From Isoetes taiwanensis (lineage: Eukaryota > Streptophyta > Lycopodiopsida > Isoetales > Isoetaceae), in the NCBI GenBank assembly GCA_021234155.1, contig JAJEKV010000005.1, forward strand, positions 27,167,189 through 27,231,188: DNA of 64,000 nucleotides. The letters are read 5' to 3'. The translations under genes were made by a program, and so were the position numbers. Numbering within the stretch: the first letter of the stretch is position 1; every line of letters begins with the position of its first letter. Below are positions 1,681 through 64,000 of the stretch, piece after piece. Below the pieces are notes generated by a model. That model made no database searches. It saw only the letters and a program-made list of their open reading frames with translations, and was not told where the DNA came from.

Positions 1681-1689
1681 TGCCGTGGT

Positions 1690-2552
1690 TAGCTAGTATG
1701 TTGTTAGTTAGCTTTGAGCCCGGGCGCATGCATTCTAGTTAGGAGGGTGCATGTGCCGTAACCTTGGATCGCGGTGGGCGATGATGGGATACGCCTTTAA
1801 GGCATTCTCTAGGCCACACGCATTAAGAGGTGCGCATGACCACTAGGGTCATGTGCGAGTGAGGAATGAGGCATAGTGGGCGATGATGGGACATCGACGG
1901 ATGATCTCTATGCCACGATACGCGTGGCACGCGACACCAGCCGTAGGAGGGTCATGGTGAAGGTTAAGTGATCATGCGCGATGATGGGATCGTGGAGACG
2001 TTCCCCAGCTGAAACCCCGGGGCATGATGCCTTTGGGGTGTACTCGATCCGGGGGATCGTGGTACAAGGTAGCACTCGATCATGGGCAATGATGGGAGCA
2101 TCTTAAATGATCCCTAAGCTCAAACCGAAAAGGGCCATGATCTTGGGCAAGGTAGTAGGACAACCTTGAGCCGAGTTCTACCAAGGAGGTAAGGGGTGGT
2201 CCCTAAAACCACAAATTATTAACTAAACTAACGTGAATGTGCTCTTTTGCGGTGCAAGTAGAAGGAGGACTTCAACGAGGAGCGCTATTTAGAGGATAGG
2301 GGAGCCATAATTTAGATTATGAACCCTAATAATTCTTATAATAGTATTTTGAATTACTATAAGAAATAAGCGTGTTAAGGCTATATAATTTTGTATAAGT
2401 ACAAATATAGCCTAAATTTTGACTTTCAATTAATAAAACTTGATTCCTAAAGTAAACCAAAGGTTAATTACGTTGTTGATTTTTGCGTGCATAAGGTAGG
2501 GTCGTCACCTTAGCGCAATGCTTTGAGGACAAAGATTATCCTAAGGGGAGAA
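1690..2552 (+). other. Untranslated tail of chromovirus 1 with four spaced 14-bp repeats and polypurine tract
   Basis: No reading frame is seen here. The motif GGGCGATGATGGGA or a one- or two-base variant recurs at 1776, 1878, 1976 and 2084, about 100 bp apart. A polypurine stretch, AAGGGGAGAA, ends at 2552 just before TGACGG, which is the usual layout of a polypurine tract beside a 3' LTR. A TATA-like stretch with an AT-rich region lies at 2380-2460. Confidence 0.5.
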
Positions 2553-15900: not shown

Positions 15901-16277
15901 CCAACATGCCACCTAGGCTCAAACATGTCAAGGTGGCTCAAACATGCCACCTAGGCTCCAACATGCCACCTAGGCTCAAACATGCCATGCGGGGCTCACT
16001 TAGGCTCCAACATGCCAAGGTGGCTCCAACATGCCACCTAGGCTCAAACATGTCAAGGAGGCTCAAACATGCCACCCTAGGCTCCAACATGCCACCTAGG
16101 CTCAAACATATAATGCCGTGGGCTCCAACATGCCTAGGTGGCACAAACATGCCACCTATGCTCAATCATGCCAAGGTGGCTCCAACATGCCACGCAGGCT
16201 CCAACATGCCATCTAGGCTCCAACATGCCAAGGTGGCTCAGGCATGCCACCTAGGATCAAGCATGCCACCTAGACAC
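12985..16277. repeat. Satellite array I, 19-bp units (about 3.3 kb)
   Basis: Alternating 19-bp units, CATGCCACCTAGGCTCCAA and CATGCCAAGGTGGCTCAAA, make a 38-bp higher unit repeated through the region with many variants. The unit halves CCACCTAGG and CCAAGGTGG are themselves inverted relative to each other, so single strands can fold. There are irregular deletions of a few bases, and longer higher-order blocks: the stretch near 13320-13470 recurs near 14100-14250. Because 19 is not a multiple of 3, the long open frames here are accidental. Confidence 0.97.
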
Positions 16278-19308: not shown

Positions 19309-20560
19309 AGTGCCACATGGGCTTCAACATGCCACCTAACATGCCAGCGTGGCTCAAACATGCCGGCGGATCCAACATGCCACCTAGGCTCAAACATGCC
19401 ACCTAGGCTCACACATGCCACCTAGTCTCCAACATGCCACATAGTCTCCAATATGCCACCTAGCCTTAAACATTCCAAGGTGGCTCAAACATGCCGTGGG
19501 CTCCAACATGCCATCTAGGATCCAACATGCCAAGGTGGTGAAACATGCCAAGATGGCTCCAATATGCCACACGGGTTCCAACATGCCATCGAACATGCCA
19601 AGGTGGCTCAAACATGCCCGTGGGCCTGACACTCCATCTAGGCTCAAACATCCCAAGGCCACCTAGAAGCCAACATGCCACCTAGTCTCCAACATGCCAC
19701 ATAGTCTCGAATATGCCACCTAGGCTCCAACATGCCACATAGTGTCCAGCGTGCCATCTAGGCTCCAACATGCCACCTAGGCCCAAATATGCCAAGGTGG
19801 CTCAAACATGCCATGTGGGCTCCAACATGCCACCTAGGCTCCAACATGTCAAGGTGGCTCAAACATCCCAAGATTGCTCAAACCGCCACCCTAGACTCCA
19901 ACATGCCACCTAGGCTCCAACATGACACCTAGACTCCAACATGCCACCTAGGCTTAGACATGCCAAGGTGGCTCAAACATGCTGCGTAGGCTCCAACATG
20001 CCACCTAGGCTAAAAACATGCCAAGGTGGCTCAAATATGCCACCTAGGTTCCAACATGCTCAAACATGCCTGTGGGCTCCAACATGCCACCTAGGCTAAA
20101 AAACATCTTAGGTGGTGGTGAAACATGCCACCTAGTCTCCAACATGCCACATAGTCTCGAACATGCCACCTAGGCTCCAACATGCCACATAGTCTCCAAC
20201 GTGCCACCTAGGCTCCAACATGCCACCTAGGCCCAAATATGCCAAGGTGGCTCAAACATGCCACGTTGGCTCCAACATGCGACCTAGGCTCTAACGTGCC
20301 AAGGTGGCCCAAACATGCCACATGGGTTCCAACATGCTAGCTAGTTGGCTCAAACATTCCAAGGTGGCTCAAACATGCTACAACATGCCACCTAAGATGC
20401 CAAGGTGCCTCAAACATGCCACGCGGACTCCAACATGCCACCTAGGCTCAAGCATGCCACCTAGGCTCCAACATGCCACCTAGGCTCCAACGTACCACCA
20501 AGGCTCCAACATGCCAAGGTGGCTCAAACATGCCACCTAGGCTCCAACATGCCACCTAAG
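19309..20560. repeat. Satellite array II, 19-bp units (about 1.25 kb)
   Basis: This continues array I in the same orientation on the far side of the inverted-repeat element, with more divergence and extra variants such as CACCTAGTCTCCAACATG and CACATAGTCTC. The array is probably the interrupted right part of a single original array. Confidence 0.95.
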
Positions 20561-33859: not shown

Positions 33860-36597
33860 TTTATAATAAATTCAATGTCTTTGCCAAAATGCTTGGATTT
33901 TTTTGAATTACTATAGCATGATGGCTAATATTTGTCTTTCCATTTTGTGAAAAGTTAGCCAAAAGCAAGAAACTGTGATGGAGAAAAACCATTTAGTTTA
34001 GCCATGTGTTAGAAACTTCTAGCCCCAATTTGAAGGTAGTTTAGCTAAACCTATTTTGGCTACACTAAAATATAGAAGTAGTAATTTATTCCATGTTGGA
34101 GATGCCTTCACATTGGCTACAATATGTAGCATAATAACAGGGGGTTTTCTTTGTGTTTTTGTACGCTTTTCACAAAGGTTTTCGTAAGATTTCATGGCGT
34201 ATTCGAATGGATGTACTAATGCGTACATCTAGAGTGCACCATTTCTTAGTCGTTAATTTAGCTTTTTTTTTTCAATGGTCCAACATCCAAGGGCTCACAA
34301 CAAAAGCCCTCTTTTTATTTTAGGGCCTGGAGGATAGCATTTTAGGGCACGAAACAGGGCTTGCAAATCTGCAACAACAGGGAACAGGGCTTGCAAATCT
34401 GCAACAACAGGGATTAGCAAGATAAGATTACAGGCTGTGAATATGCTAGGCTGTGTAGAACACAGGGCATAAAAGCTAATCCGACAGAATGGGTGTACCT
34501 AGGCATTGCTCTTTCGTCCTCGGCTAAAAATTCGGATTCTAGGAAAAGGGGGCCACATCGGTTCAGGTTTCGTTCAGTACTAAGTATGACCGGAGTAACA
34601 GTGGTGAATAATTTGGGCTCTTTTAGATCATACGTCTCTTATTACCTTCACTCTTTGTGATTCTGCAGAGCATCGATTGGGAAGAAAGGAGTAGATGCAG
34701 ACCCATTTGATTCCTCCCCTGTTTTTTGTTTTGCTTGCAAAGGCTCGCAGGCAGAGCACTTTGTGGGATAGCTTGGCGATATACATGCAAATGAATCTGC
34801 TGGACTTAATGCTTGAATTTCTTCTCAGATCCGTGATTTATCAGCAATGTTGAGCTTGAGCTTGTGTGTTTTGTCATTCAGTTCATTGCAGTGACCAGGT
34901 ACCTTGTCTTTCTCTGTCATGATACTACCCTATTTGAAATAAAGACTTTTATTGCTTTGGATCCATTTGGGCAATAAAGACTTTTATTGCTTAGAAATGT
35001 TAGGATAGTTTGTTTAAGCCTATACGGAGTATGAAGCTTGTGAACTGGATTTTTACGTCCAAGCACAATAACAGATTTCAGATGCTCTGTGCGTTTTCTC
35101 TTAAAATGTAGATTTGTCAGTGGCCGATCAACTTTGGTTGATGCCGTCGCTTGCCAGGATGACGAGAATGCTGTCAAATGCAGATGTAGTCGCCAGGTAC
35201 TTAGATCTTTAACTTGGCAAATGATTTTCTCCAACACAAAATTTTCAAGTTTGTGAAGCGCATTAGGTTATGTAGATTCAAGTCCTGAAGCAAATCGGTA
35301 AATTCTTTGGATAATTGTTTAAATGTGTGCCCTGATTAGTTATATGTATCTGTTATTTCAGCTAGATGCGTACTGTGCACGATTAAGATTCAAGGTCCCA
35401 AATCCAGAACATCAGGCTCTTAGGCTGACCTTTGCTCTAATATCTGCCATTCTGGTCACAGAAATTAAAAACCTTACCCCTAAAGGGCTAGCAGCCTATT
35501 GCTGGGTAACCTTTGGTACGAACTTGACTTTCACCTTGGATTTTCAACCATCGGAGTGGAGTTTGGTTGTATTATTAGCTGAGTTAAGATCTTATACTTG
35601 AGAACTGAAATTTTTGATGCTGTGGGTTCAAAGCTAAGGTACTGGTTTGGTGTCTTTAAGTTGCTTCTTGAATTCATAACATGGATTTGAGGATTTTTAG
35701 CATGAGAAGCCTGATGTGCATCAAGCCTAGCACCTGAATGGAATGCTTATATTGCAGTGCTGTTGATAGACCAGCATTATAATTAGAAGATGTCAGTTTT
35801 TTATTGAATAATCTATATAAGCTGGAGGATCGGCTGGAGATTTTTTTTAGAATGGATTCTGGATAAGAGCAATACTTATCTAATTCTGGACTTGGAAGGC
35901 TAGCAGCAAAAATCAACGTGGCATTGGTGTATCAAGATTGGACATAAACGTTTGAATAGTAACGCAACTTAATTCAAATAAGGTGGTTCTTATATTTTGC
36001 TTTAGTGGAAAAAGAGCAGCTATTTGATGGCTGTATCAAATACACTCATACCAATATTTTGTCATACACTTATAGCTCAATGTTAAATATATTCTTGCTA
36101 TTTTTATATCTGCACAAATTGCATGTTCCTCTTGAAACTAATCCATGTTCTAGCATGAACCATACCCTCTTGTACATGTGTTCATCTAGAATATCCAAGC
36201 TTCTTAGTAATTAATATATAGATCCTTAAAGTTTACCTATGTTTGCTTTTGTTAGGGCCCGAAGGGCCCAAAATTTTTTTTAGTATAACAACCAACACAT
36301 AACTATCATTAACATTAATTAACACAAACCATTGGGTCCAACACATTTAAATTAAAATCCCCCTTAAACCCCCTTTGGTTTGGGTGCATATTCACACGGG
36401 GGGTGACGTAGGGCAGCGAGAGCCCTTATAATTATGTTTTGCACGTACAAAATCAACACCATATAGTATATTGCCTGAAATCTTATAGTATTTTGTAAAT
36501 CTTGTTATACAGTATAACAAATTCTGTACATCTATACCCCACAAACGAGGAACTTTGTGTATGGTGTAGATTAAGGAATAAGGGATGAATATGCCTA
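33860..36597. other. AT-rich non-coding region
   Basis: No gene recognised. A 33-bp tandem duplication (ACAGGGCTTGCAAATCTGCA repeated) lies near 34355-34415. GGGCCCGAAGGGCCC at 36255-36269 is a GC-rich inverted repeat in an otherwise AT-rich stretch. Confidence 0.6.
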
Positions 36598-37158
36598 TTG
36601 AGCATGGTGGATAGCCATGCCAGAAAATATAGTTTGGAAAGACGCCAATTGTATTGCTTGACAAACAGAGATCCACTTGGCACCACAAAGGATGTTATGG
36701 GAAATATGACACATCATTGGTGTTATCTTGCAATTTATAGTAGAGTGGGCATTGACTTTGGGTACTTCAATTCAGAAGTATTTTCTATGAAGGATTTGAA
36801 TCAAAACAGTAGCTTGCTGCATCATGTGCTTCATCGAGAAGAGAGATTACCATTACCCGATACAGCACACTCTAGATTTGGATTGGAGAGATCTGTTAGA
36901 CTCATGGAGTTCCTCTTACATTGTTTTTGTCCTAACAGTGGCTTCATGTCAGATCTTTTTGCTGGCACAGGTTCTATGATGGAAGCATGTGCAATTCGCG
37001 GTGCACATTACTATGGAATAGAGAATGACGATGAGCTTGTGGACTTGGTGAGGTCACTTCGTGGATGCATGAAAAGAGAGGAAGCATCGCATAATGTTGA
37101 TTCCGATGGGGAATCTAGTGATGTGCATGTCGAAGACGTGGATGAACCTTCAAACTAG
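36598..37158 (+). CDS. Permuted DNA methyltransferase, C-terminal part with motif I (locus A)
   Basis: The frame ends a protein whose SAM-binding motif I is clear: SDLFAGTGSMMEACAIRGAH, followed by YYGIENDDELVDLVRSL, which matches the strand-loop-helix and the acidic end of the next strand in N4/N6-type DNA methyltransferases. In these the D-x-F-x-G-x-G motif lies near the C-terminus after the catalytic motif, a permuted (beta-class) order. Upstream, LERSVRLMEFLLHCFCPNSG is the helix that precedes motif I. A serine- and acid-rich tail follows. It resembles the C-terminal exon of locus C at 57.9-58.3 kb, which reads LDAFSGSGTTIACALKKGRN. The first ATG at 36604 may not be a real start; the 5' exon boundary is unresolved. 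A catalytic motif IV exon is not identified beside it. Confidence 0.65.
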   Translation: MSMVDSHARKYSLERRQLYCLTNRDPLGTTKDVMGNMTHHWCYLAIYSRVGIDFGYFNSEVFSMKDLNQNSSLLHHVLHREERLPLPDTAHSRFGLERSVRLMEFLLHCFCPNSGFMSDLFAGTGSMMEACAIRGAHYYGIENDDELVDLVRSLRGCMKREEASHNVDSDGESSDVHVEDVDEPSN

Positions 37159-48564: not shown

Positions 48565-50883
48565 TCAAGAGTTCTCATCATCGTCCTTAGCTTCTTTAGC
48601 CACTAATTCTTGCAACTGAGCCCGAACACTACTGGGGATCACCACTGACAATGGCCTGGTCTCTACGGCCCAACCATAGTCTATTGTTTTCAAAGGTTGG
48701 TAGCGTGGCGGGTCATTAGGATTGGGTCTCCAATTCTTGCTCCAACAATCCCTATACTGCATTGCATATGAGGTTCCCTTTCTGGCAACAGGTTCAAACC
48801 AAGAGACAAACACCTCTTCATAATGTGGGAGATTAGGGTCCTCTATTGGGTCCTCTTCGGCAAAAGCCATCCATGTCGGGCAGTTATCATGTGGTCTGAT
48901 TAGCAAGAGCATTCCCTTCTTGACATCTTGGTAGGGGTCGAATATTTCAACTGGGTTCTTGGGTCTACCCGAGAAAGGCCCTACGTAATGAGATGCTTCA
49001 ATGTGCTCATCCACAAACACTCTTTCGGGTTCTTCCAATGCACTTTGCACAGTCTTTGGGCAGAAATCTGAATGACAGACTCTAATGGGCTGCACGTCAC
49101 CAAGCACTCGCATGACAAAAAGGTGGACCAAGAGTCAATAACTTCATTCATATATGTGTTGGACCATGACTTATCGCCAGACTCTAGAAATAGCTGCCCG
49201 GTGCATCATGTACTTGGCAATAGAAGCTCTTAATGCACCTATATCTTTCAAGCTCCCCATATGGGCTGCGGGACCTTAGGTGACCCTCTCGGAATCATAG
49301 GTAAACCTTGGGCATCCTCCTTCCACATTCGATTCCCTTTTCAGGAGCCACTCCCTATGCCCTGGCCTCATCTTGTAGAACATTAGTGGCCATCCATCCT
49401 TCATGCAAAACTTGAAGAGTAGAGGTTCCAAGTGACCACATAAACGGTCCTTCTTATCAGGGATAAAACCTTTCACGAATTCCTTCCAATCGGGAACCCT
49501 GTCACAAGGTAAGGTGAAGGAGCCTTTGAACTACACTTTGCACGAAGAAGAGTTGCATAAGCTCCGGAATAGTCAATGCATCTGATCTTCTCATTAGAGT
49601 AGAGTAGTTTCCAAATAGGGCATCTATGTCATCGTGGGTGTGTCCAACCATCATGAATCCCAGCTGCACTTGATCAAATACACCTAACCAAACCAAGTAT
49701 GACAAGTAAGAGAAAAGATATCTATTCTTATTCTGACTGAGCAATTATCTAGTCTGCAAGTAAAGCCTCCTAGGCAACTTGTTTGCTACCATGGGGCCTT
49801 TGATAGGAGGCATAAAATCATTTTCTTGCCATTCATCATTTTTGTCCTAAGGTTATATGTGTTTAAAATTGCCGCACTCGGTGCTTTTCGAGACGATCAA
49901 GATCTCTCAAATGGCCCCAATTATCCTCGATTTATTCTCCGGTGTCTTCAAGGTATGATTCAAGGATCCCACATGAAAATTAGAATCATCGGGCCGAGGT
50001 CGAGAAGTGGCCCAAGGCACCTATACCATGGGCGTGCATGAGAGCACCTATAACACTTGACCTTGGTCGTTCACCCCTCCATACGGACTTTGCTAGCTTC
50101 TCTAGGCGAGGGACCATGGTCTTATTCTGATCCATCTTATCATGTATAATGGTTAAAGCGTGCTCGGGGAGATCTATCGACAAAGCTCTCCGGGACCGAT
50201 AAAGGCTCCTCGCATGAAATCGGGCCGTCATATGCGATTTTCTCTCTATTGCAAGTACCCTTCTTTTCGTTTGGATCTCTCGGTCTTAGCAAGCTTTTCC
50301 TTTATGACAATACGAGGTGTTACACTTGGAAAATGCTATCCTCTTAGCTATTGATACCTCGAATGATTCTCTTTCAAGCCGAAATGACGAAGGAGAAATA
50401 TGCTTTTGTCATCTCTCAGAAGCGGAAATATCTACTTCTTGGTGTATATCCTTCTTAGTCAAGACTGAAGGTAGCCTCCTAACATTTTGTTCGCTACCCT
50501 CGCTTCGTAATTTTTGGCGGTGTGGCATCGTCTCTGCGTTTTCATCTATGAACATGGATATAAAGCATTGCCGACCAAAGTATGAGACCTTGGCTTCTTA
50601 GACCCGATATTTCCGTGCTCGGCAATTACGCGGGGCCGTCATTGAAGAGCTTCTTCCACTTGTAAAAAGTGGAAATGGGAATGCCATAGGCTTTATGCCA
50701 TGCTTTCACGCACACCTGTTTGTTATTCAACATCAGTTTGCGGACTACACCATTTTCAGAGCAAAGATCTAGCATGTTATATGCAAAAGTTGTGCGCTCC
50801 GAGGACTTCATGTTCCAGTAAAAGGTTCTCATGCAAGCTATCTCACGGGATGTAAAATTTGCACAAACATCGTTTCGATGCAA
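48565..50883 (-). pseudogene. DUF7869-like transposase-type protein, broken
   Basis: Pieces of one protein in order along the minus strand. 50883: CANFTSREIACMRTFYWNMK and HKAYGIPISTFYKWKKLF, the N-terminal part that precedes the core in this family. About 50450-50600: a decayed LPSVLTKKDIYTKK segment. 50231-49986: LTIIHDKMDQNKTMVPRLEK and ALMHAHGIGALGH, a core strand with Asp residues. 49744: FMMVGHTHDDIDALFGNYS, the family's most recognisable motif. 49476: KGFIPDKKDRLCGHLEPLLF. 49131-48565: a C-terminal domain (MLLLIRPHDNCPTWMAFAEE, VFVSWFEP). The Asp and Glu distribution suggests an RNase H-like fold as in DDE transposases, which I infer. Frame changes and stops separate several pieces. 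Confidence 0.7.
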
Positions 50884-50902
50884 AGACGGTGATGACCGAA
50901 GT

Positions 50903-52738
50903 CTAGAATAGCCTCGGCACTAGTTTTTCTTTCACATTTAGTCGTGTTTGGGCGTGTTCGGGTCTCCGATTGACCATCTTTGTAAGGTCTCTTTTGGTGA
51001 TGCCAATTTCAGGTCTAATGGAGTAAGGTTCATTCTCCACATCCTTCTCCTTCACCGCAACCACAAGAGTAGAAACTGGAATGTTATCAACGAGCACGAG
51101 GGCTATGGGCCATCTCACAAGGTCATGCAGTTGGGGCATTTCTGCACAGGCCTGGCAGCGCATAGAGATCTTTTCAGGCATTGGAAAAATGTTCATGATA
51201 GTAGCAGCTATCGAGCCTTCCCCTAACTTCACGTCAGACACAGCATGGTTTGGATCGGCAAAAACGATAACACCATAGGCATAAGCCATGTAGCAGCATT
51301 CATGCATGAGTGTGCACGCCTTCTCAACTAACTCATCTCTAGAAAGCCCTTGCACATGATTCGTCTCATTACTGGCTAACCCCTCATTCCCTCTGTCCTG
51401 CCAGTCTATGCGTTTTATCTGACCTGGTGGGGTGCAAGCTTCCTCATGTCTATCAAGTTGAGCAGCAATGTCCTTCTTGTACCACAACACAAAAGTCCCC
51501 ACAGCTTCACCCATTTTTTCTATTTCCATTTCGGGAATTGGTAGCGAATCTTGTCCATCCGAACATTCACAATTGAAACGACAAACCATACCCTCCGGGA
51601 CAACCGAATTGTGATGGCGCCGAAATTGTGGACTCTTCCTTCGCCACCTTTTTCCCCGGCCAGATCTGGTGAATTACATCAGCCATCCCGCAAACAAGAG
51701 GTCGCGGAATAAGCGGCGGTAGCGATCCTAAATAGCGTAAAGCACTGTGATCATAAACCACTACAAAAAATAGGAACTGAGAAATAAAAAATGGTCAGGA
51801 CTATCGCCACGGCGATCTTATCGAGCATGGGTAAGAACGCGGTCGCGCTTTTTGCAAGCATTCACACTAGCTGTTTCAATAAGAACTCGTGCAAAGCAAA
51901 TTTCGAGGCTAGCTAGTGGTTTCAACTCAAAGTTATCGATAGCTGGGAGTTCTTTGGTCAATAGCAAGTGTAGATGGTTGAAGGTATCGCGACCGCGATC
52001 TCGTGGAGCACCTAAGTTAAACGATTGACTTACAGAATAAAGCATTACTCATACCTCACAGAATACGGTGGCGTCAACGTCAACTTGTAGCCGAGAACCC
52101 GTCAGAAGCTGCAGTGTCATAAAAACAGTGTTTAGTTTCATCCACATGGAGAAAGAAAGCATATACTTGAAACACGTTTACATTGTATAATAAACACACC
52201 AGAGTGCACAGTTTTGCTTAGAACATCTATTTTTACATAGTTGCAACAAAGTATCAGGAGGTATCTTATCAATCCATGCAATACATAGTGATGTTAGTGC
52301 AGAGACTCGGAGGTTGTAGTTATAATTGAAATTCAGTGCAACATAAACGTTGAGTTCACTTGGTGAGGGATATGCATCGAATAGGCCTTTTACCTCGCCA
52401 AAACCACGAATTCGATGCGGTTGCGAGAATTCCGAATGTGTAGTGGCGGATTGTAAGCGGATTATCGGGCCCTCGTTAAGCGCCTTCAATGGATGCGAAT
52501 TCTGCAGCAAATCCTTGCCCGAACTTGGCCCAAATTTTAGGCGCGACTCGGCGCCTCGAAGATCTTTGCAAAACAATGAAATTTGAATTGGCTTTTCCCG
52601 CTTTCGAATTGGTTTGTTCTCGAATTCAAATTTTACGGTCATTTGTCCGGTCAAGTAAACGGATTCTTTTGGGGCATTTATGGCTGCATAATGTGTCGGG
52701 TCCTTAATTACGCCCGAAATTGAGCAGCGGACGTCCAA
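50903..52738 (-). CDS. Unknown gene D, divergent from locus B, with palindromes in its intron
   Basis: No family recognised. Exon 1 runs from ATG 52738 (MDVRCSISGVIKDPTHYAAI) to about 52200 and looks beta-rich (TVKFEFENKPIRKREKPIQI). A short exon ends at 52055 (LLTGSRLQVDVDATVFCE, donor GTATGAG). An intron of 294 bp follows, 51761-52054, carrying three palindromes of the same class as locus B. The next exon begins at 51760 (YDHSALRYLGSLPPLIPRP). After one frame change near 51580 it continues EIEKMGEAVGTFVLWYKKD to 50903, with CYMAYAYGVIVFADPNHAVS and PIALVLVDNIPVSTLVVAV. It shares a 340-bp divergent promoter region with locus B, suggesting a two-gene unit. The frameshift may make it a pseudogene. 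Confidence 0.5.
51803..52000. repeat. Palindromes P2 in the gene D intron
   Basis: ATCGCCACGGCGAT at 51803 (GCC/GGC arms, AC centre), CGCGGTCGCG at 51838 and ATCGCGACCGCGAT at 51986. All three lie inside the 294-bp intron; the third is a one-base variant of the perfect ATCGCGGCCGCGAT. Confidence 0.8.
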
Positions 52739-53074: not shown

Positions 53075-56001
53075 ATGGCACCTAAGGACTCCCTCAGAGA
53101 AGGTAATTTCTAACATTTCAGCTCAGCAACATCGCGGCCGCGATCTTGCTTACTAGAACTTCTATTGTTTTCATAAGTATAGCTGCTCACCAAGATCGCG
53201 GCCGCGGTCTTCCTTGCTAGGTTTTGTAATTTCTAGATAGCGGTCTTCATAAGTGTAGCTGCTCAACAAGATCGCGGCCGCGGTCTGGCTGAGCATAGAT
53301 TTTCTTTCTTGCGATGTTCATGAGTACTAGTGTAGTAGGTCATTAGGTTCGCGACCGCGATGTTTTCTTGCCGTGCTTAAGTGCTACACAACGTCGCGGC
53401 CGCGATAGTGTGGAGTTCTATTTTAGCTGCTTGGCAGGATCGCGGTCGCGTTTCTCTACAGTAGTTTATACCTTTTCGTTGCACCACATTATGCAGCCTA
53501 CCAGGCACTCACCACAGGCTTTTGTTTACAGCACTTGCTCTCTTCCGAGGACCAGATGTCGAGCCCGTCCGTATTATAACCCCTTCCAATGAAAGGAAAT
53601 GGTGTATTGAGATTGCACAGGCTATACCGCACATTAAGGGTGATCGCAGAAAGGACCTGTGCCTGTTTCTGCGGACTGGAAAAAAAGCTGAGGACGTTGA
53701 ACAAGTTGGCATAGTGGTGGCAATGTGGGAAGGCACGAAGAACAATGTGCAAGATGCTATCATATGCAGCATTGAGGACACACAAGCATTGCAGTTTCTG
53801 GAGTACATTTTGAAATGGCGCAATTATGACCCGTCTCTGATGACAGCCAGCAAAATGAACAAGCCAGCCACAGGGAAAAACGTCCCCACGTCAGCTAAGG
53901 GTTATGGCTGGTTGTTGCCATCCTATGAATCTCTCTCTTTGTCAGGAATAAAGGGAAACAGAGACATATTGCTCGGGTTCTCGGCATGCAGAAATGGATT
54001 GTCTACAGACAAGAAGCCTCCGAGCTGTGCCTTGAAAGCAGTTCGGGACGAGAAGATGCCCTCCGTGATGGACACCAATTGGCTAAGAGCCGTGGCCAAG
54101 AAAAAGAGTGTGAAGCCTATTGCTACTTTGGGAGAGACATCAGCACCAAAAGAAGTTGCTCAAGAACCACAATCCACGATAAACCCCTCCGGTATTGTTA
54201 ACCCTACTCTTCCTCTTGCTATGAAGGCCCCAGATAGCACTACATCTGGTGGATTTATTCCAAAAAAACTCCCTCCTTTCAGAATTAGCCTTAAGAATCG
54301 ACACCCATCGAAGATAGCCCGCAGCCCGCCAGTTCTCAAACCCCCTCGATTCACGGATGCCTAGCATTGACATGGCCATGCGCTTTTTGCCATTCCGGTC
54401 GAGTTGAAGTTCAATCCAGAAGAGGCGCAAGATGGCGAGAGCAAACCACTTTCGAAGCTTGAGCGGTTCAAAAGGTTCTACCCCTTAGGGGTTAATTGGT
54501 TTACAAAGATTTCTATTTTTGATTGTGAACCTGCACCAGCAAACTTGACACAACGAAATCGCGGTCAAATGACCATGTTCAAACTACGGTTAAAAGCTTC
54601 AAGACATACCGCCGGAGGTCCTCACCCCTTGGCCGACGTCGTTCCGTTTGACCCTATTACCAAGTAACTAATTCTTTATCTTTTGGACTTTTCGTTATGT
54701 AGATTTGACGGCGGTTGTCTATCTTTCGAGGAGGAGGGTGACATGGAGCAATCGAGAAGATTTGAAGGGCAAGAAATTTTATATTATTTACGGCAACCCA
54801 CGATATTTCTTATTTGCACAACTCCTTTGTTAGGTCATCGGCGAAGTTCGAGCAGCAACAACGAGAATTTGCCAAAGTATATCTTAGAAGAAGATCGAGG
54901 GTGCTCAACGAAATCTTACGGACAAGGAATATATAGAGTTGAGTATTCAATGCAATGAAGTAATTGCAAAACAGGTGTCTGAGAGCCACCGATTGAAAAA
55001 GCGCAACAACCGTCATCGGCACAAGGCTTATGGTTGCCCTCCACAAGGACCTATAGGGACAGCTAAAACTTCAGCTTGGAAGGTATTTATTTGTTTTCTA
55101 CTCGCCAAGTTCGCGGCCGCGATCTTGATGACCTTCAAATTGCTTCTGCAGGATTTCCATGAAATTGCAACGACCACCTTGAAAGTGCAGGAGCTTAAGG
55201 ATGAAAAACAATTCATTTTTATGGATGAGAAGGTTTTCAAGAAGTTAATGGAAGTTGCCGGTATGTGGGTGAGTCGTAAACTAAGTGACGACCATGGTGA
55301 CTTTCCAGACAAGCCATCGAAAGACTTCTTTAACAAGACCTGGCTCCGGTTGCTACGAGGTATGTCGAATGCAGAGGTGTCACAGCTGCTCGATGAGATT
55401 ATAGAAGGCAAGACCTATTTGAAGGTGCAGTCAGGTTATAGCGGGAGATTTGATTGCAAACAACGGGCAATTGACATCAGAACCCTCACTTTTATGAGGC
55501 GAGAAATTTTATCTTATGCTACAAATTTGCTGCAAAGGGATTTCTATAGCTGGGACGAATTGCTTCAGGCTTTTTCCGATTTGGTGAAGCGAGAGAATCT
55601 TGGATATATCAGATACTGATATAGAATACGTGAAGGCTAACTATAACAAGGATCATACACTGGGTAACCTACCTGTAGCCTTTCTGGAGCCAGTCAGGAA
55701 TATTCTAAAGCCAGAGGAGGCTAGAAAAAGAAAGGAAAAGAGAAATATTGTCATAGCAGTGACAAAGGATGGCATCCCTACTTCCTCCCAAGTGTCAGAG
55801 AATGCGACACTGATATTTATTGACATCCGAGGGATAAACAAGGTATGGGATTGCAAGAAATACACAGATCTATTTACAAGGATAGCTACCATGACGAATG
55901 CCAAACTTTATCACTTGGTCATTATCATGCGCTCAGTGAATTTGCCCAATTGCTTGTACAGTCAGAAGCAAATTCAGGGCAGCGGCGGCTGCCATTCATG
56001 A
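53075..56001 (+). CDS. ParB-like/DNA methyltransferase-like gene, locus B, 3' truncated
   Basis: Exon 1, 53075-53102, encodes only MAPKDSLRE. Intron 1 (53103-53531, GTAATT..TTACAG) holds six palindromes. Exon 2 starts ALALFRGPDVEPVRI; its VEQVGIVVAMWEGTKNNVQD and QALQFLEYILKWRN match the N-part of locus C (QVGRLSFKTSQG.., QALYKFLSHYRTKR). A disordered, proline-rich linker ends at a stop at 54364. The reading then continues in other frames: LKFNPEEAQDGESKPL, then a ParB-like stretch (LTAVVYLSRRR, KKFYIIYGNPRYFLFAQLL) and a helical part KTSAWK/DFHEIATTTL split by intron 55083-55151. From 55600, IDIRGINKVWDC stands where methyltransferases have motif IV (DPPY type), so catalysis is unlikely. Motif I is absent: the gene ends at 56001, 26 bp from a P3 hairpin. 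At least three frame changes suggest a pseudogene. Confidence 0.65.
53131..53450. repeat. Palindrome array P2 in intron 1 of locus B
   Basis: Six copies of a 14-bp palindrome or near variant, ATCGCGGCCGCGAT: at 53131 (perfect), 53195, 53271, 53348, 53393 and 53439. They are often preceded by CAAG and followed by (C/T)CTTG, so the palindrome extends to about 20 bp in the best copies. The spacer sequence around them repeats loosely (AAGTGTAGCTGCTCAACAAG). Confidence 0.9.
55111..55122. repeat. Single palindrome P2 in the 69-bp intron of locus B
   Basis: TCGCGGCCGCGA, perfect, inside intron 55083-55151 (GTATTT..CTGCAG), phase 0 between codons for K and D. Confidence 0.92.
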
Positions 56002-56026
56002 AGTTTTAAGGTGCTCTTGGCCCAAT

Positions 56027-56093
56027 GTCTCACACGTTGCGCCTCGTTCAAAAACTGGAGTTTTGTTTTTAGACCAGGCGCGACGTGTGAGAC
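56027..56093 (+). repeat. Nested hairpin P3, copy 5
   Basis: Complete copy: GTCTCACACGTTGCGCC, a loop containing AAAACTGGAGTTTT and TTTTTAGACCA, and GGCGCGACGTGTGAGAC. It starts 26 bp after the end of locus B. Confidence 0.95.
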
Positions 56094-56282
56094 CACCTTG
56101 CCTTAGAAGGTTTTGGCTCACTGTTTTTAGTCTTATTATGTTCCAATTCACTTAACTGTTACTAGCTTAGCAAATACTACAAAAATGAGAAAAAAAAATT
56201 CCCACTTTTTCGAGGTTTGAGGATCCTATCAAGTTAGTACTACTGGGAGCATGGCCAGTGCTTTGCTCTTGGTCTCCAAGAA

Positions 56283-56299
56283 CATTGCTCTGATACTAC
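56283..56299 (-). mobile_element. Primer-binding site of chromovirus 3
   Basis: The minus strand next to the LTR reads GTAGTATCAGAGCAATG, close to the TGGTATCAGAGC complement of initiator tRNA-Met. This shows that the adjoining LTR is a 5' LTR and not a true solo LTR. Confidence 0.7.
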
Positions 56300-57874
56300 T
56301 GTGACGTCCCCTACTCGTATACGGTGCGCTCACCGTATACAAACAGGAGTTCATCCCCCATACCAGCTCCATACTGATACAGGGCCCTCCACATATCATT
56401 GCACCCGTAACGAGTCCCAGTGGGAAGAGTGAAGGGGTCATTTTACCCTGTCTCCCTCAGGGCCTACCTATTCACGTAAGCGTAAACATACATGTCAGTA
56501 TATAACATAATCACATATCCACCTCGAAGGGTGGTACATCAACATCTGCATAGACAAGGATCAGCACAAAACATATGGGTTCCTACCCAAGGCTCAGACT
56601 CGAAGGAATGACTGACGGCTTGGGCCTCCAGAGTTCATTGCAGACAGAATTCATGGCAATGGATTTGACTGGCATAAGAACATGGCTTAGGGTTGTCCAC
56701 TCCATCCGCCCCTCCTGTGCACACTTTGCAGAGTAGGTTGAAAAGTGTTGGGACTTGACTGTAGCCCGCCGGATGCATAGCCAAAGGGGCTATTCCTGGG
56801 TTGCATCTCCCCAGTTCCGATGGGGCAGGTAGGGATCACTCCCTCCAGAGATCTACATGCTGACTCAAGGTGACTAGAGAGCCACTGTCGACTGAACCCA
56901 CTGGAAAGTGAACACCACTCCAGGGGTGTCGAGCCCATGCCTTGCTCGCACTCAGTGGCAAGCCATTAGACCTAGTCACAATGATCCCCGGTAGACCTTA
57001 CACACCAGAGGAATCGTTCAAGAGTCAGAACACGAACCTCCTTCTTAGCCAGTCTGGCCCCTTCACCCACAACCAGGTGTGGTTCTTGTACATAGGCCGA
57101 ATCTACAGTGTGCTAGAGAGGCTAATCTAGGAGCATCAACTACCAAGCTTTGGGGTCTCTATCCCCCTTCCCAATACAAGGAGTTCACAGAGATACATCA
57201 TCTCTATACATCACAGAAGAACTAAAGAACTAAAGAACTAAATCTAATCTATATCATAGAGTTAGGTTCTTTAGTTAGTGTCTGGTATCTGAGAATCTAA
57301 ATGGCTGCTATGGGCAATTTAATAGGCTAAACCTACTGATACAATGACTGGAAGACGGTTTAGGCTATTAAATTGACTAAATACCTGATCCTTGGGTTGC
57401 TCCTCATGACCTGAGTTCGACCATCCTGCTGAACTGCTTGAAGATGGAGCCAACAAGGAAAACTAATGGTGCAATTCGCTCTGGGAGGCGGTTTTGACCC
57501 CTTGAGCATGCAAAACAAAGCTCTAAAACCCTATGGACGAAAATAGCAAGTTAGGGTTTCTCCTATCTAAATAGATAAGGGGTTAGGGCTAGGGTTTCCA
57601 ATTATCCCCTTAAGCATGTGGGCTAATTGGGTATGGCCCACTTGCCTTTAATGGCTAGGTGGCATAAAGGTGTCCACATGGGAAAATGTGCACCTAGATA
57701 AATGTGCACATTGGTAAATGTGCACATTAATAAATGCACATACCTTGCAAGTTGCCCCCTAGGGGCTACCCGCCTAGCTACACGTCGGCGTACACGTCAG
57801 TCGGGATGGCGTGTACGCGTGACGAGGCAGTACAGTATACGTCCTGGGACCGTATACTGTGCTGGAACGTCACA
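56300..57874 (-). mobile_element. Complete LTR of a chromovirus (5' LTR, minus oriented), body lost
   Basis: Runs from TGTGACGTCCCC to GGAACGTCACA, so the ends are inverted TGTGACG/CGTCACA. It matches 4216-5616 closely over 1.4 kb. To its left are the primer-binding site and about 180 bp of leader, then unrelated sequence, so the coding body is deleted. To its right it directly joins the last codons of locus C. No matching 5-bp duplication could be seen on the two sides, which fits deletion on the left. Confidence 0.85.
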
Positions 57875-58328
57875 ATGATTTAGCTCCTAACTCTTGATTT
57901 TCATCTGGTAGAGTTGGTAGAGCAGACAACCTCATCTTGATAAAGTCTACAGCCTCTTTATCAATGTCAACATCAACACAATTACGGCCCTTTTTTAGTG
58001 CACATGCTATTGTTGTACCAGAGCCAGAGAAAGCATCAAGGACCCAATCTCCTGAACGTGAGAACATGTCCAGAATATGGTTGATTAGCTTCTGTGGCTT
58101 CTGATAACGATTGACAATTCTGCCTTGTGCACTTGGGTCCTGGACCTTCTGTAATACTACTGGGAACTCTAGGACATTAGAAAAATTTTGGCAGGCTGCT
58201 GTGTTGAAGTGCTCCATGGTACGCTTCCCGTCGAAACTCCAGTAAGCTACATGGAGATACTCAACCTTGCTCAGCAGCCTCGGTCCTCCACCATGGTAGT
58301 TAATATTAGTTTTATACCTGCAAGATCG

Positions 58329-58361
58329 TATTCCAGAATAGTAAGTACGTATTCCAGAATA
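58329..58361. repeat. Two palindromes P1 in the last intron of locus C
   Basis: TATTCCAGAATA at 58329 and 58350, inside the small intron before exon 6 that also received the copia element. Confidence 0.88.
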
Positions 58362-58368
58362 GAACCTG

Positions 58369-58776
58369 TCAAGGTTGCACCAAGAAAGGGAGAGAAGGGG
58401 ATGCACTTGCAAGAGTAGGATGCTGATGAAGATCAAAACCGTCTACAAGTTGAGGCAGCTGGTTGAGTGCTTTAAGACTGATGTGTCCAAGCCTTTTATG
58501 CCATAAGTCACAAGTACCATTACCAGCAGCTACAAGAACAACCTGGTCAGCATATTCTTGGCCCAAATGGTAGAGATTACCCGTACGAATAGCACGAGCA
58601 AGGCTCTTTCCTGTAACTTTGCTGCGAACAATGCAGTCATCACTATCAAAGGAAACTGTTGTGCCCATATCAGTAAGACGTGCAACAGAAATCAGATCTT
58701 TACACAAAGTAGGAGTATACATTACGCCTTTTAGAGTGAAATTACCAAGACTTGTGGGTACTTGAATATCACCCAT
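58369..58776 (-). pseudogene. Copia gag-pre-integrase fragment
   Basis: The minus strand reads VMYTPTLCKDLISVARLTDM and the gag-pre-integrase motif CDLWHKRLGHISLKALNQL, then runs into the LTR remnant, where the deletion junction lies. It follows the protease after a frame break at about 58850. Only the N-terminal end of pol survives. Confidence 0.85.
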
Positions 58777-58851
58777 TCCGCAGATTTGATGCTCACTATT
58801 GTCGCCGATTTGAACAATGTGATTGGAAGAGGTAGGTCTGAAATTTTCAAA

Positions 58852-59886
58852 CTAATCTTTGTGCCAACTAATATGAGCTGTAGCACCAGAATCCATGATG
58901 AATTTGATAGAGTGAGGGGCTGCCACTTGTTTACAAAGGTAGACATAATCCAGGCTGCAAGGAACCACATTGGCTACGCTTACTTCTTCAACAATTTGGG
59001 ACACATTGGCTGAAGCTTTGTTTGTCTCCAAAGCTTTCAGTTTGTGCTCAAGATCCTTCATCTTCTTCCTACATTCTGTTGCGGTATGATTGCCTTTCTT
59101 GCAATAGTCACAAACCTGCTGCTTGGATGCTGTGCCTTTGCTGTCAGCACCCTTGAAGGCATTGCTGCTACTGTCATTCTTCTTTTTCTTAGCTTTTTCA
59201 TTCCCTTTTGTATAGGATTTAGGCTCAGAATGACCTGCAAAGAAAGCATTGTGCTCGTCTTTGATAATCCCAGCATCCTTCCTCATCATAATCTCCTCCT
59301 TGACGGAAGTGATTGCACGATTGAGATCCATGTCGGCAATTTGCATGAGATTGCTGCGTAAAGCATGGAAAGAATTGGGTAAGGATCTAAGAAAGAAGAA
59401 TAATTGCAATGAAGGAGAGATCTTATTCTCTTCTCCAGAGGCTTCAATCTGCCGAAAGGTGTTCTTCATGCAGTCTGCGAATTTGTCAAGACTCTCGGTC
59501 TCTTCCCAGTGCATATTCACCACTTCAGCATACAAATGCCCAATTTGTGTATAGGTCTTCTTTTCATGCTCTTGGATGAGATCATTCCATAAATCATGGC
59601 TGTTCTCCTTCTGAACCTCATCAAGAAGAGATTCAGCAACAGAAAGCCCAATCGTAGCCATAGCCTTGTCATCCCGGCGTTGCCAAGCATCAAGAACAGA
59701 TTTATTCTTGCCATCTGATGCAAGCTCGGGTGCTGGTTCTTGGCCACTAACAATTCCCCAAACTCCTTCAGCCTTAAGAATGAGAGTCATTCTTCTCTTC
59801 CATTGCTGGAAACCTGTGCCATCGAAGATTTGAATCACACGACCGCCAGGGAAGGTAATCTGGTTGTAGCTTGCATCCTTCTCCAT
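58852..59886 (-). CDS. Copia gag and protease start, 344 aa
   Basis: Gag of a Ty1/copia element; it forms the particle and binds RNA. It starts at ATG 59886 (MEKDASYNQITFPGGRVIQI), 50 bases after the primer-binding site. The UBN2-like gag domain is clear (FQQWKRRMTLILKAEGVWG, SLDKFADCMKNTFRQIEASG, FFFLRSLPNSFHALRSNL). A lysine-rich linker leads to a zinc knuckle, CDYCKKGNHTATEC, and the aspartic protease site FIMDSGATAHIS, after which the frame stops. Gag itself is uninterrupted, which implies a fairly recent insertion. Confidence 0.9.
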   Translation of the reverse strand: MEKDASYNQITFPGGRVIQIFDGTGFQQWKRRMTLILKAEGVWGIVSGQEPAPELASDGKNKSVLDAWQRRDDKAMATIGLSVAESLLDEVQKENSHDLWNDLIQEHEKKTYTQIGHLYAEVVNMHWEETESLDKFADCMKNTFRQIEASGEENKISPSLQLFFFLRSLPNSFHALRSNLMQIADMDLNRAITSVKEEIMMRKDAGIIKDEHNAFFAGHSEPKSYTKGNEKAKKKKNDSSSNAFKGADSKGTASKQQVCDYCKKGNHTATECRKKMKDLEHKLKALETNKASANVSQIVEEVSVANVVPCSLDYVYLCKQVAAPHSIKFIMDSGATAHISWHKD

Positions 59887-59918
59887 TGCTGTGTTGATCT
59901 TGAATCAATCTCAGCACA

Positions 59919-59936
59919 CCTAGTGCTCTAATACCA
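59919..59936 (-). mobile_element. Primer-binding site of the copia element
   Basis: The minus strand directly after the 5' LTR reads TGGTATTAGAGCACTAGG, one base different from the common TGGTATCAGAGC complement of initiator tRNA-Met. Confidence 0.85.
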
Positions 59937-60257
59937 TGTCAAGGTTGCACCAAGAAAGCGAGAGAGGGGGGTGCACACCAATATCCGAGAGTGCAAGCTC
60001 CCAAAACAAAGGCAAAATGGAATTGTATTGAACGTATGTGAGAATACAAGATATACAAAAGGGCAGGCAATATTAATTGCTCCCGTCACCAACCACTCCT
60101 AATTATGCCGTTGCTAATTATGACAAGTGGTGGGCCGTTGCTAGACTCTGATAAGGTGCTTAGTCAGCACTTATGTGCTGAGTGCTATAAGTGCTGTAAG
60201 TGCTGATACATCACGTCTAGTGGCAAGATGGTGATCTCGATATCATATATCTCGACA
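59937..60257 (-). mobile_element. 5' LTR of the copia element, 321 bp
   Basis: Starts TGTCGAGATA and ends CCTTGACA on the minus strand. GCTGAGTGCTATAAGTGCTG forms part of a GTGCT-rich repeat near 60160-60200. Confidence 0.88.
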
Positions 60258-61068
60258 GAACCTGACGGGTTACAATTGCAACCATGAATCAAAACTTGAA
60301 AGAAAGAACACTTCATCTGCACTCTTGATTTGAAGACCCACCAGACCATATTTTCATAGCCGGATTGCACAGGAGAACCGAAGTGGTTCTTGAAAGTAGC
60401 TTCCACAAGGCCGGATTGCATGCTGGAATGGAACACAACAAGACGCCAGTGTTTTGCTGTGGTAACCTGCTTAATTCCATCGATGAAAGCATTGAATTCT
60501 GAGTCTTGAAAGGCTGATCGCCGTAGCGGCTATCCTTCAGCTTAAACCCATATGGCAATTCTGCTATGACCAAAGTAAAATCTTGTGGCTTTATACTTCC
60601 TGGCAACTTAGTGCAGTCCCCATGAACGATAGAATAAAAGTTATTTTGATCGAACATAGAAAACCTCTCGTAGTCGGATGGCTCAACATCTATAATACGC
60701 CTGTCCACTAGAGTCCTCTCCTCTTTGGCTGTTCGTACCAGATGCATAAAACCTTCTGGCAGGTCCTTGTTCTTCTTCTTGCTCTGTTAGCAAATGAAGT
60801 CAGCTTCATGCAGCACAAAGGAAAAACTTTAAAAACAGGAAAACGACGTACCCAACCCTTAAAATTTGGAGCGTATTGAATAATACGCTCGTCGGATGTA
60901 GCAATGGGATAGAGCTCTTTACACCTGTCCCAGCTGTCCACGTTCAACTGCTCCATTAAACATGTTTGGCACGTAATAACGTTTTTTTGGCTGGAAGTCA
61001 ACAACAATGAAACTAAGTGAGTATTGTTTTCCGGAAAACGAAAACACCAAGAAGAAGAAGCTAAAGTG

Positions 61069-61335
61069 TATTCTGGAATACACTTTTGATTCACGTTAAA
61101 AGCCAGAGTGTATTCCAGAATACACTCTGGCTTCGAATACACTTTGGCTTCACGAAGTGTATTCCGGAATACACTCTGGACTACCCGCAGAATCCAAAGT
61201 ATATTCCAGTATATACTTTGGCTTTCCGCAAACCCAAAGTGTATTCCGGAATACACTTCAGGCCACACGCTGATCCAAAGTGTATTCTGGAATACACTTC
61301 AGCCCACACGCTGATCCATAGTGTATTCTGGAATA
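61069..61335. repeat. Palindrome array P1 in intron 3 of locus C
   Basis: TATTCYGGAATA at 61069, 61111, 61160, 61242, 61283 and 61324, plus a variant at 61202 and a half site near 61134. The best copies extend to AAGTGTATTCCGGAATACAC and its TT ending. All lie in the 395-bp intron 60991-61385. Confidence 0.92.
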
Positions 61336-61656
61336 CTCTTTATGCTACGGAAGGAAACTTAAAACGAAAGTTCTGTCGTTCTTACTTGTGCAGTTCCTTG
61401 GACATTTCTTCGAGCGTAAACTCTTTGTCTACGATCTTCTGCAGTAGCCTTTCTAGTATGTCCATGTCTGTAAAGCCCTGCATTTCTCTCCAGACAGTTA
61501 TCGTCATTTCTTTTTTTGGGACGTCAGAACCTTTTTTCTTTTCTGAGACCTTTCCTTTACTTTTCAATTCACCACGCTCGAACATGGTAAAAATCTCGTT
61601 TTGTAGGTCCCATATCTGCATAGTATTAAACGAGGTCAGTGGGAGGGCAACAAGGT

Positions 61657-61668
61657 TATTCCAGAATA
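61657..61668. repeat. Single palindrome P1 in the 67-bp intron 2 of locus C
   Basis: TATTCCAGAATA inside intron 61616-61682, phase 0, at the position equivalent to the locus B intron that holds one P2. Confidence 0.9.
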
Positions 61669-62946
61669 CAAAAGATGCTTACTCTGTCGTCTCTGAAGGC
61701 TAGTTGAAACTAGTTGTCATGCGGTATGAGTGACTGCCGTTTATTAGCCTCGTCGTACTTGAGGCAGCACTCCACAGCGCATGATTCCTTCAGTTATAAT
61801 GAGTACGCTGGTTTCTTTAAATCTTCTCCATATTTTTCTTTAAAGATCATGTACTCCCTGTGCATAAAATGGATCTTGTCGACGAAGCTCATCTTTAGTT
61901 TGTACTCGTTGTCAGCATTGTGGGTGTTGGCAACGATTAAACGGCGCACAGGACGGAGAGGTACCTGGGGGTTCTTTTTTTCTTTGTACAACTGCCTTCT
62001 TGCCTTGAAGCTATGATTTCCTCCCAAGACGTAGTGAGTGTAAGTGTCTACTTTTTCTCTGTCATAGTCCTGGGGAGTGTTGCATTGCTCCCTGTCAACA
62101 AGGACAACTATTGGGGCCACATGAGCATTTGGATTGCTCCTAATTCTGTCCTTCAGATTCCTTAAGTGGTCGGCATAAATTTTTCGAACCTGAAGCGGCC
62201 TTTCACCAGCTTCATTCTTTGGGGGTAGCCTCATGCAGGTCACAGGAAGATAAATCACCTCTTGTACAAATTTTTCTCTATTAATTACCTCCATTCTTTC
62301 GGAGGTCTTATCAACGTTCTTTTCTTTTATTGCAACCCCGGGAGCTTTTCCTTTTCCCTTTTGTTTTTTTGAGCTTTCCTCGGGGATTTCTGCGATTTCA
62401 AGCTGCTGTACCTTCCGCTTCTTTGGTTCCTTAGCGGCTATGGTTGCCCTTGGCCTGCTAAGTTTTTTGGCGGCACTAGGGGGACTTCCGGCTCTTCTTC
62501 TTCTTGGGAACCTCCATCTGATGACCTCCCTGAAGTACTAGCAGAAGGTGATGATTGTGATCTACCTCCATCTGATTGCTCGGACTCACTGACAGGAAAG
62601 TCCTCGCTCGTACTAGTACAAACCTGTCTAATTAGTGAACACAGGCTTCGTTTGGTCCGATAGTGTGAAAGGAATTTGTACAGTGCCTGTGGTTGCACAC
62701 TGACAATTCTAAAGAATGCGATGTCTACAACAATGAAGCCTTGGGAGGTCTTGAAGGATAGCCTCCCCACCTGACCTCCTTGTCCGGCAACCTCGGAGAC
62801 CTCTCTTGTTGTCCCTAGGTTAACAAACTCGGTGTCGGCGTAAGCTTAATCTTCAGAGATTTCTTTGATGCCCTCTTGCTTCCTTCTTCCCTGCCACTGA
62901 AACGTTTAAAACAACAATGTTAAGACAGAAATTGGGACGAAAACTA

Positions 62947-63384
62947 TATTCCAGAATAACATTTACTAATCTTGTGCCCTAAAGGCCAGCAAAAGACAGG
63001 AAAACAAGCAAAAATATTGTCACTCTAACTCAATTTTTTATGCCTTAATTGGACTAGAAAATGGTATGTTTAACCTAAAAAGTGGTCTGTTTCAGCTAAA
63101 AAGTGGTATGTTTAAGTGCAAAAAAACAAGTGTTTTCAAGAAGACAAGCAAAGTGTTTGCTCATTGGCGAAGAGCAAAGTGTATTCCGGAATACACTTTG
63201 CCCTCGGAATACACTTTGCCCTTCAGGCGAAGAGCAAAGTGTATTCCGGAATATTCTGGAATACACTTTGGCAAAGTGTATTCCAGTGTATTCTGGAATA
63301 CACTTTGCCCTTCAGGCGTAGAGCAAAGTGTATTCCGGAATACACTTTGCCCTTCAGGCAAAGAGCAAAGTGTATTCCGGAATA
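62947..63384. repeat. Palindrome array P1 in intron 1 of locus C
   Basis: TATTCYGGAATA or its complement at 62947, 63182, 63242, 63252 (overlapping), 63289, 63331 and 63373, with half sites near 63205 and 63279. Repeats of GCCCTTCAGGCGAAGAGCAAAG separate the copies, giving a local tandem unit of about 45-60 bp. All lie within intron 1 (about 62897-63450). Confidence 0.92.
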
Positions 63385-63641
63385 CACTTTGGCCTACAAA
63401 AGCAAATCAGGAAACACACGAAAGACGTACTATGTACTTTAATTGCTTACCTGTCCATTATTTTCGTTATGTAAATCGGAATACAGCAAATCAATATAGA
63501 TCGGAAGGCGCTCGGGCTGGCGACTAAATATCTGGAAGCGGAATACGCAACTGAGGCGCTCAATTTTCCTTTTTAAATGTAGGTGTCAGTTGTGTTTTTC
63601 TATGTGATGCGGAATACGTCTTGTCCAAACACTCTGGACAA

Positions 63642-63709
63642 GTGTATTCTGAAATAGCATCTATGCACACACACAGCAAATGCTGCACACAAAATAGTAT
63701 TCCGGAATA
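63642..63709. promoter_or_regulatory. P1 palindromes between locus C and the right-edge gene
   Basis: A variant TATTCTGAAATA at 63644 and a perfect TATTCCGGAATA at 63698, followed by TATTCTCGAATA near 63718. They lie between the start of locus C (63458) and the plus-strand ATG at 63790. Confidence 0.7.
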
Positions 63710-63789: not shown

Positions 63790-64000
63790 ATGGTTAACCG
63801 CTTCGTGAACAAACTTCCACCACCATTTGTTTGCCCAAGTACCTCTACTTCAGAAGGAACACAAGACGGAGATGCTTCTTCAACACCTACCTCGACAAGG
63901 TCTTTGTTGCTTCTCGGAGACACTCCGAGTCCAGTAACTAGTAGACTGCCACCACCTTTCCAACCCTCTCCAAGTCCAGTAGGAAACTGGCTGCCACCTC
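63790..64000 (+). CDS. Proline/serine-rich unknown protein, 5' part, runs off the window
   Basis: An open frame from ATG 63790 to the window edge: MVNRFVNKLPPPFVCPSTST, then SEGTQDGDASSTPTSTRSLL. It then carries two related segments around SRLPPPFQPSPSPVGN, so a proline-rich internal repeat begins here. Just upstream, TTTTTTGCAG at 63771-63780 is a good splice acceptor, so an earlier exon may exist. No family is recognised. It lies divergent to locus C, as gene D does to locus B, but gene D's N-terminus is not similar by eye. Confidence 0.5.
   Translation, partial: MVNRFVNKLPPPFVCPSTSTSEGTQDGDASSTPTSTRSLLLLGDTPSPVTSRLPPPFQPSPSPVGNWLPP

Follow-up and report, generated by a model that had tools for sequence, protein, structure and literature searches.

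We analyzed a window of 64,000 nucleotides from the quillwort Isoetes taiwanensis (assembly GCA_021234155.1, contig JAJEKV010000005.1, forward-strand positions 27,167,189 to 27,231,188). It contains two genes, here called B and C, whose introns carry arrays of perfect palindromes, P2 in B and P1 in C. A preliminary description of the window treated B and C as paralogous host genes. Our results showed that each is instead the accessory-gene half of a DNA transposon; the two transposons belong to different families and lie tail to tail, and their DUF7869 transposase genes are here called D (C element) and D_B (B element). In the loci that we sampled across the genome, the palindromes followed element family and lay in non-coding DNA. 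The coordinates of the features are given in Table 1.

Two DUF7869 transposons in the window

Table 1. Genes, introns and palindromes of the B and C elements, in window positions
Feature	Position	Strand	Details
Gene D_B, DUF7869 transposase of the B element	48568..51673	-	pieces 48568-49134, 49505-49744, 49989-50285, 50629-50919, 50906-51673
Two P2-class copies	51838..51997		51838, 51988; immediately 5' of the first recognised D_B exon
P2 array, B intron 1	53131-53451		10-bp core starts 53133, 53197, 53273, 53350, 53395, 53441
Gene B (P2 family), distantly related to C, degenerate methyltransferase without PY in motif IV	53465..55998	+	
69-bp intron of B	55083..55151	+	GT..AG, phase 0
P2 single copy, B 69-bp intron	55112		
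Gene C (P1 family), ParB-like part and N6/N4 DNA methyltransferase, multi-exon	57873..63480	-	Pfam, homologues, genomic copies
C last exon, methyltransferase motif I (DAFSGSGT)	57873..58317	-	
P1 pair, C last intron	58329-58361		58329, 58350
Copia-type retroelement remnant in C last intron, truncated, gag-like frame	58367..60257	-	target site duplication GAACC
P1 array, C intron 3, 6 copies	61069-61335		61069, 61111, 61160, 61242, 61283, 61324; 41-42 bp period
67-bp intron of C	61616..61682	-	GT..AG, phase 0
P1 single copy, C 67-bp intron	61657		
ParB-like part of C, LGGNHS.KARRQL motif	61872..62300	-	alignment with P0001-P0004; model of P0001
P1 array, C intron 1, 7 copies	62947-63384		62947, 63182, 63242, 63252, 63289, 63331, 63373
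P1 between C and D starts	63698-63709		
Gene D start, DUF7869 transposase of the C element	63790..64000	+	runs past window end

Genes D and D_B are divergent from C and B, respectively. The second half of D matched DUF7869 (PF25273, 1.4e-41 on the genomic copy L015; genomic loci carry L numbers). The second listed piece of D_B matched PF25273 at 9e-23 and D at E 1.9e-18, and D_B was also found in L026 and L027. A search for DUF7869 in the genome (1,658,258,908 bases in 1110 contigs) gave 9902 first-look candidates; 150 were scored, all with E <= 3.6e-46. The named ones among the 120 transposase homologues listed of 334 came from Riccia, Chara, Mytilus, and other eukaryotes, and none of these 120 was labelled Sola. 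A search of open-licence literature for DUF7869 gave no paper.

The right end of the C element was sharp at extended coordinate 67344 (L025, which continues the coordinates beyond the window end), and the same end occurred with different flanks in seven other loci. In the three non-autonomous copies with both ends seen, the inverted ends were AACAAGRTTGC..GCAAYCTTGTT, and all three had 4-bp target site duplications (TTTA, ATAC, and ATTA). The target site duplication of Sola1 elements is 4 bp long. The three duplications agree with this length, and we call both elements Sola1-like. A ParB-methyltransferase gene on the strand opposite the transposase, which not every Sola1 element has, agrees with Sola1-1_Ec32 of Ectocarpus, as the available part of its description presents it (PMC12477816).

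The last exon of C matched the Pfam family N6_N4_Mtase (PF01555) at 5.7e-17 with 62.9 bits (cut-off 26.7). Motif IV was D-x-P-Y in seven readable copies of the C family (L006, L008, L015, L017, L019, L031, and L032); L014 was unreadable. By a profile score above the cut-off and a motif IV of the form [DNS]xPY, the C family is thus predicted to belong to the N6_N4 methyltransferases. Four C homologues were found at E <= 0.001 (P0001-P0004), one of them from Chara braunii, and an upstream part with a GGxHS motif is common to them. With a structure model of P0001, the top two Foldseek matches were ParB-N (5k5d/5k5a), at the weak values of 6.9e-3 and 1.1e-2, none reaching E <= 0.001; the Pfam search of C proteins gave no match to a ParB domain. 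The coding frame of C contains breaks. A long terminal repeat (LTR)-type insertion with LTR-like ends (56297-57871) cuts the 3' end of C at about 57872, and a relative of this insertion, with 86% identity across 747 aligned bases, lies next to the 3' end of the C copy L006, in the opposite orientation and at a nearby but different point.

In the B family, motif IV read DMRS, DMRA, or DIRG in all four copies (L026, L027, L028, and the window). The score of L026 against PF01555 was 15.1 bits, below the cut-off, and the family was not assigned to the methyltransferases. The relation between the methyltransferase regions of B and C was remote in the one hhalign comparison (E 1e-6 global, 1e-5 local). 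No homologue of B was found in the protein collection at E <= 0.001, and close homology between B and any known protein was rejected on this ground. Structure prediction of its methyltransferase region gave a pLDDT of 41.6. Directly after B there is a 29-bp inverted repeat with a 9-bp loop (56027-56093, GTCTCACACGTTGCGCC..GGCGCGACGTGTGAGAC). The introns given throughout are predictions based on the splice sites, the reading frame, and what is conserved from copy to copy.

Palindromes and element families

The P1 core, TATTCYRGAATA, occurred in 17 exact copies in the window, all between 58329 and 63709, against 0.01 expected. By our gene model, all 17 were outside exons, and 16 were inside gene C. 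P2, TCGCGGCCGCGA, scanned with up to two mismatches, gave eight matches vs. 0.34 expected: six in B intron 1, one in the 69-bp intron, and one outside B. The rescan confirmed the numbers per intron previously given for both genes and the absence of P1 from B and of P2 from C. It added the P1 copy at 63698, which had not been listed, and it contradicted the limitation of P2 to gene B, since two P2-class copies lie outside it, near D_B. Two-fold symmetry was perfect over up to 28 bp in P1, 14 bp in P2, and 20 bp in P3, a third palindrome described below. The motif logo was built from both strands, is symmetric by construction, and was not used for symmetry. Where the core varied among the window copies, C had changed to T (or G to A), in P1 at its central CpG and in P2 at its central CCG, a pattern that would be expected if methylated cytosines had decayed.

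Across the genome, we counted 3070 copies of the P1 20-mer AGTGTATTCYRGAATACACT and 961 of the P2 14-mer ATCGCGGCCGCGAT, and reversed controls (palindromes of equal composition) had none. These numbers ruled out palindromes private to loci B and C. What survived of the earlier proposal of one palindrome per paralogue, confined to introns, is that palindrome identity tracks the gene family and that the sites are non-coding; the palindromes themselves are repeated genome-wide. A P1 scan of viral contigs gave 0 matches.

We inspected the first listed places among these copies, 15 regions for P1 (contigs C1-C39) and three for P2. Coding matches to C and/or D were present in 13 of the 15 P1 regions. 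P2 was absent from all 15, and P3 from 14, the exception being L009. All three P2 regions had B exons, two had D_B, and none had P1 or P3. None of the three palindromes was present in eight control stretches (five random and three from the window). When the 15 P1, three P2, and five random regions and the extended window were compared with the coding matches, only six P1 and one P2 copies overlapped a match, all of them in small or last introns that the match bridged.

Locus L009, with four P1 and 14 P3, was considered as a counter-example to one palindrome class per element and rejected as such. It is a junction of two elements: positions 1-3441 align to L032 and hold all the P3, and the sequence from 3443 onward aligns to L031 and holds all the P1.

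Four further loci (L029-L032) were picked from the 150 scored DUF7869 candidates by transposase score or long open frame, without regard to palindromes. Each carried one class only, two P1 (five copies in L030 and eight in L031) and two P3. L032 had 14 copies of TATAAATTTATA and no P1 or P2, and its proteins were about 40-50% identical to C and D; its palindrome group was absent from five of five shuffles. P3 was defined as GGTATRAATTYATACC after L032 had been seen, and L029 and L009 served as subsequent, separate checks; by eye, the motif extends to CGGTATRAATTYATACCG. L029, which belongs to the L032 group but is more distant, had five P3 and no P1 or P2. A rule of one palindrome per family, implied by the preliminary description, had predicted such a third group with a third palindrome, which L032 and L029 bore out, L032 also in the homologous small intron.

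B has a small intron of 69 bp and C one of 67 bp, both in phase 0 with GT..AG borders, as first described. The intron of C, which separates FRDDR from IWDL, holds one P1 in the window and four P1 in L031. The same phase-0 intron in L032, between FRDGQ and VWNL, holds two P3 and no P1. P1 was retained in the small intron of L008, where the remaining intron has diverged. In the P2 family, three copies (window, L027, and L028) have P2 in the small intron. The two small introns, of B and of C, had been described as following equivalent codons; we rejected this equivalence, because the sole alignment found, a weak one (E 0.08, 0.032), puts them about 27 codons apart, with that of B upstream. The 69-bp intron of B is probably different from the intron between FRDDR and IWDL.

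Candidate roles of the palindromes

We lean towards reading the palindromes as family-specific arrays of predicted recognition sites for a protein of the element, in line with the preliminary suggestion that each gene bears sites for its own product. Perfect two-fold palindromes suggest a dimeric DNA-binding protein, and a ParB-like domain joined to a modifying enzyme within the same element makes the accessory protein the natural candidate. The sites would then be bound most likely by the ParB-like accessory protein, which may recognise copies of its own family through them and, once bound, may alter their chromatin or DNA modification, so that transcription is sustained or transposition tuned. 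The arrays would expand by tandem duplication in DNA that is not constrained by coding, and as families split, a site and its protein would change jointly. The main spacings, 41-42 bp for P1 and 30-32 bp for P3, are near whole helical turns and would place the protein on one face of the helix. Helical phase was strong over all spacings (R 0.68 for P1 and 0.62 for P3) and only suggestive with each spacing counted once (R 0.28 and 0.51); the P2 spacings (n=8) had no clear phase (R 0.38).

Besides these lower phase values, several observations weigh against recognition by an element protein. Loci L005 and L016 carry P1 without a coding match; L016 is an element terminus only, and L005 is similar only to the intron-3 array and its edge. 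In the small intron, L017 and L019 have a shortened TATTCGAATA in place of P1, and L026 has a decayed P2. The palindrome samples were small and non-random, and copies share ancestry, so that their counts are not independent. On the protein side, the ParB fold call, made from a predicted structure, is weak, window C has ELPY at motif IV where other copies have D-x-P-Y, and many copies have broken frames, window C included. The P2 family has lost motif IV, and methylation therefore cannot be the function common to all families; recognition is perhaps the shared function, with methylation optional.

The main alternative, which we consider rather unlikely, is that the DUF7869 transposase or a linked factor acts at the palindromes, as at the internal or subterminal repeats of other transposons, and that the ParB-methyltransferase has another role. 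Subterminal motif arrays do occur in other DNA transposons, and P1, including pairs 19 bp apart, is kept in the non-autonomous copies L007, L010, L016, and L018, which have little or no C coding sequence left. About 48 bp inside the right end, at approximately 67285-67296 (L025), there is also a subterminal AGGAATATTCCT, in which the P1 half-sites are everted. By eye, this motif was present in the window copy, L010, L011, L016, L017, L018, and L019, with at least one change in L007. It could link the palindrome to the transposase, and for this it shifted our weight slightly from the accessory protein towards the transposase. The outermost inverted repeat (AACAAGRTTGC..), however, has no P1, the everted motif is missing at the other element end, and the 16 window copies inside the accessory gene are away from the ends.

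We regard it as improbable that the palindromes are neutral passengers, that is, tandem repeats of element introns that are palindromic by chance and family-specific by descent. The arrays do have a tandem-repeat structure, and homologous introns are common to the copies while the number of palindromes varies. Against this reading, each of three groups has a perfect palindrome unrelated to the other two, at similar kinds of sites, each element has several separate non-coding places with palindromes, and in L008 the palindrome was retained where its flanks diverged; and shuffling each of 10 loci five times never yielded a group of at least three related 12-bp palindromes. It seems very improbable that the sites serve host transcription factors or insulators driving the element genes. 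Intron 1 and the space between divergent genes are typical places for promoters and enhancers, but one would not expect a host factor to require long palindromes that are unrelated to each other in three groups that are related, and the eight control stretches had none of them.

A self/non-self code within a transposon superfamily is conceivable, and we put it forward only tentatively. In each family, a ParB-methyltransferase, or a derivative of it that has lost catalysis, would be matched to a parS-like palindrome of that family, placed in introns and in the promoter that the two genes share; the protein would protect or mark only its own family, and families would diverge as palindrome and specificity switch together.

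Known systems and neighbouring sequences

In bacteria and plasmids, ParB proteins act in partition systems with palindromic parS sites. The elements described here resemble them in having a ParB-like domain (with weak fold support) and palindromic sites, and differ in that no partition system was seen and a methyltransferase is joined at the C terminus.

VANDAL transposons are MULEs. We excluded VANDAL membership because the transposases are DUF7869 by Pfam, with no transposase of the VANDAL (MULE) type. The VANDAL/VANC system of Arabidopsis, in the part of the paper available to us, has short motifs in non-coding parts including introns, which differ between families and grow by tandem repeats, and an element-encoded anti-silencing protein, VANC, binds them (PMC5735166). 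Family-specific motif arrays in non-coding parts were likewise found in the Isoetes elements; their proteins are of the DUF7869 and ParB-methyltransferase types. VANC/VANDAL is the closest functional parallel, and by analogy the Isoetes elements may represent an independent counterpart of it. The term palindrom is absent from the main text of that paper, as far as it was available.

The portion of the Ectocarpus report that we could consult describes Sola1-1_Ec32 as having, opposite in strand to the transposase, a gene that combines a ParB-like part with an N4C/N6A methyltransferase; its authors suggest that proteins of this kind bind to the element that encodes them and modify it, and cite Iyer 2011 and Petroll 2025 (PMC12477816). 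The elements of Isoetes are also DNA transposons with this arrangement. They differ from what is described there in their land-plant host, in three palindrome classes in non-coding parts, and in one family without motif IV; the term palindrom does not appear in the text that was available. Charophyte and dinoflagellate retrotransposons, according to the accessible part of their description, also have their own DNA methyltransferases, but these are retroelements with C5-cytosine enzymes (PMC5890265).

Transposons with a ParB-methyltransferase are thus a known class. Palindromes specific to each family, and a family that lacks motif IV, are apparently new, as no report of cognate palindromes or of such a family was found among the top matches in the open-licence literature. 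Among those matches, the Ectocarpus report alone was seen to present a ParB-methyltransferase gene within a transposon. The candidate cis sites make the suggestion of self-binding and self-modifying ParB-methyltransferases directly testable. Three groups with three palindromes, two of them in the same intron position, would form a natural set of paired DNA-binding specificities, and the family without motif IV hints that the shared job is DNA recognition, not methylation.

In L013, the stretch from the C/D intergenic space into the 5' region of D occurs three times (238-1073, 4495-5319, and 8704-9560), with P1 copies and without C coding matches; these are apparently stacked or rearranged elements. 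Locus A of the window (36589-37158), in AT-rich DNA, is another methyltransferase-like frame, the third (PF01555, 7.5e-7), with a weak alignment to the motif I part of C (8e-5). It was rejected as a further element, having no DUF7869 match at E < 1 and no set of at least four similar near-palindromes at 20-47 kb. The window also contains two arrays of a 19-bp tandem satellite, AAACATGCCACCTAGGCTC, at 13140-16273 (about 168 copies) and 19338-20558 (about 64 copies).

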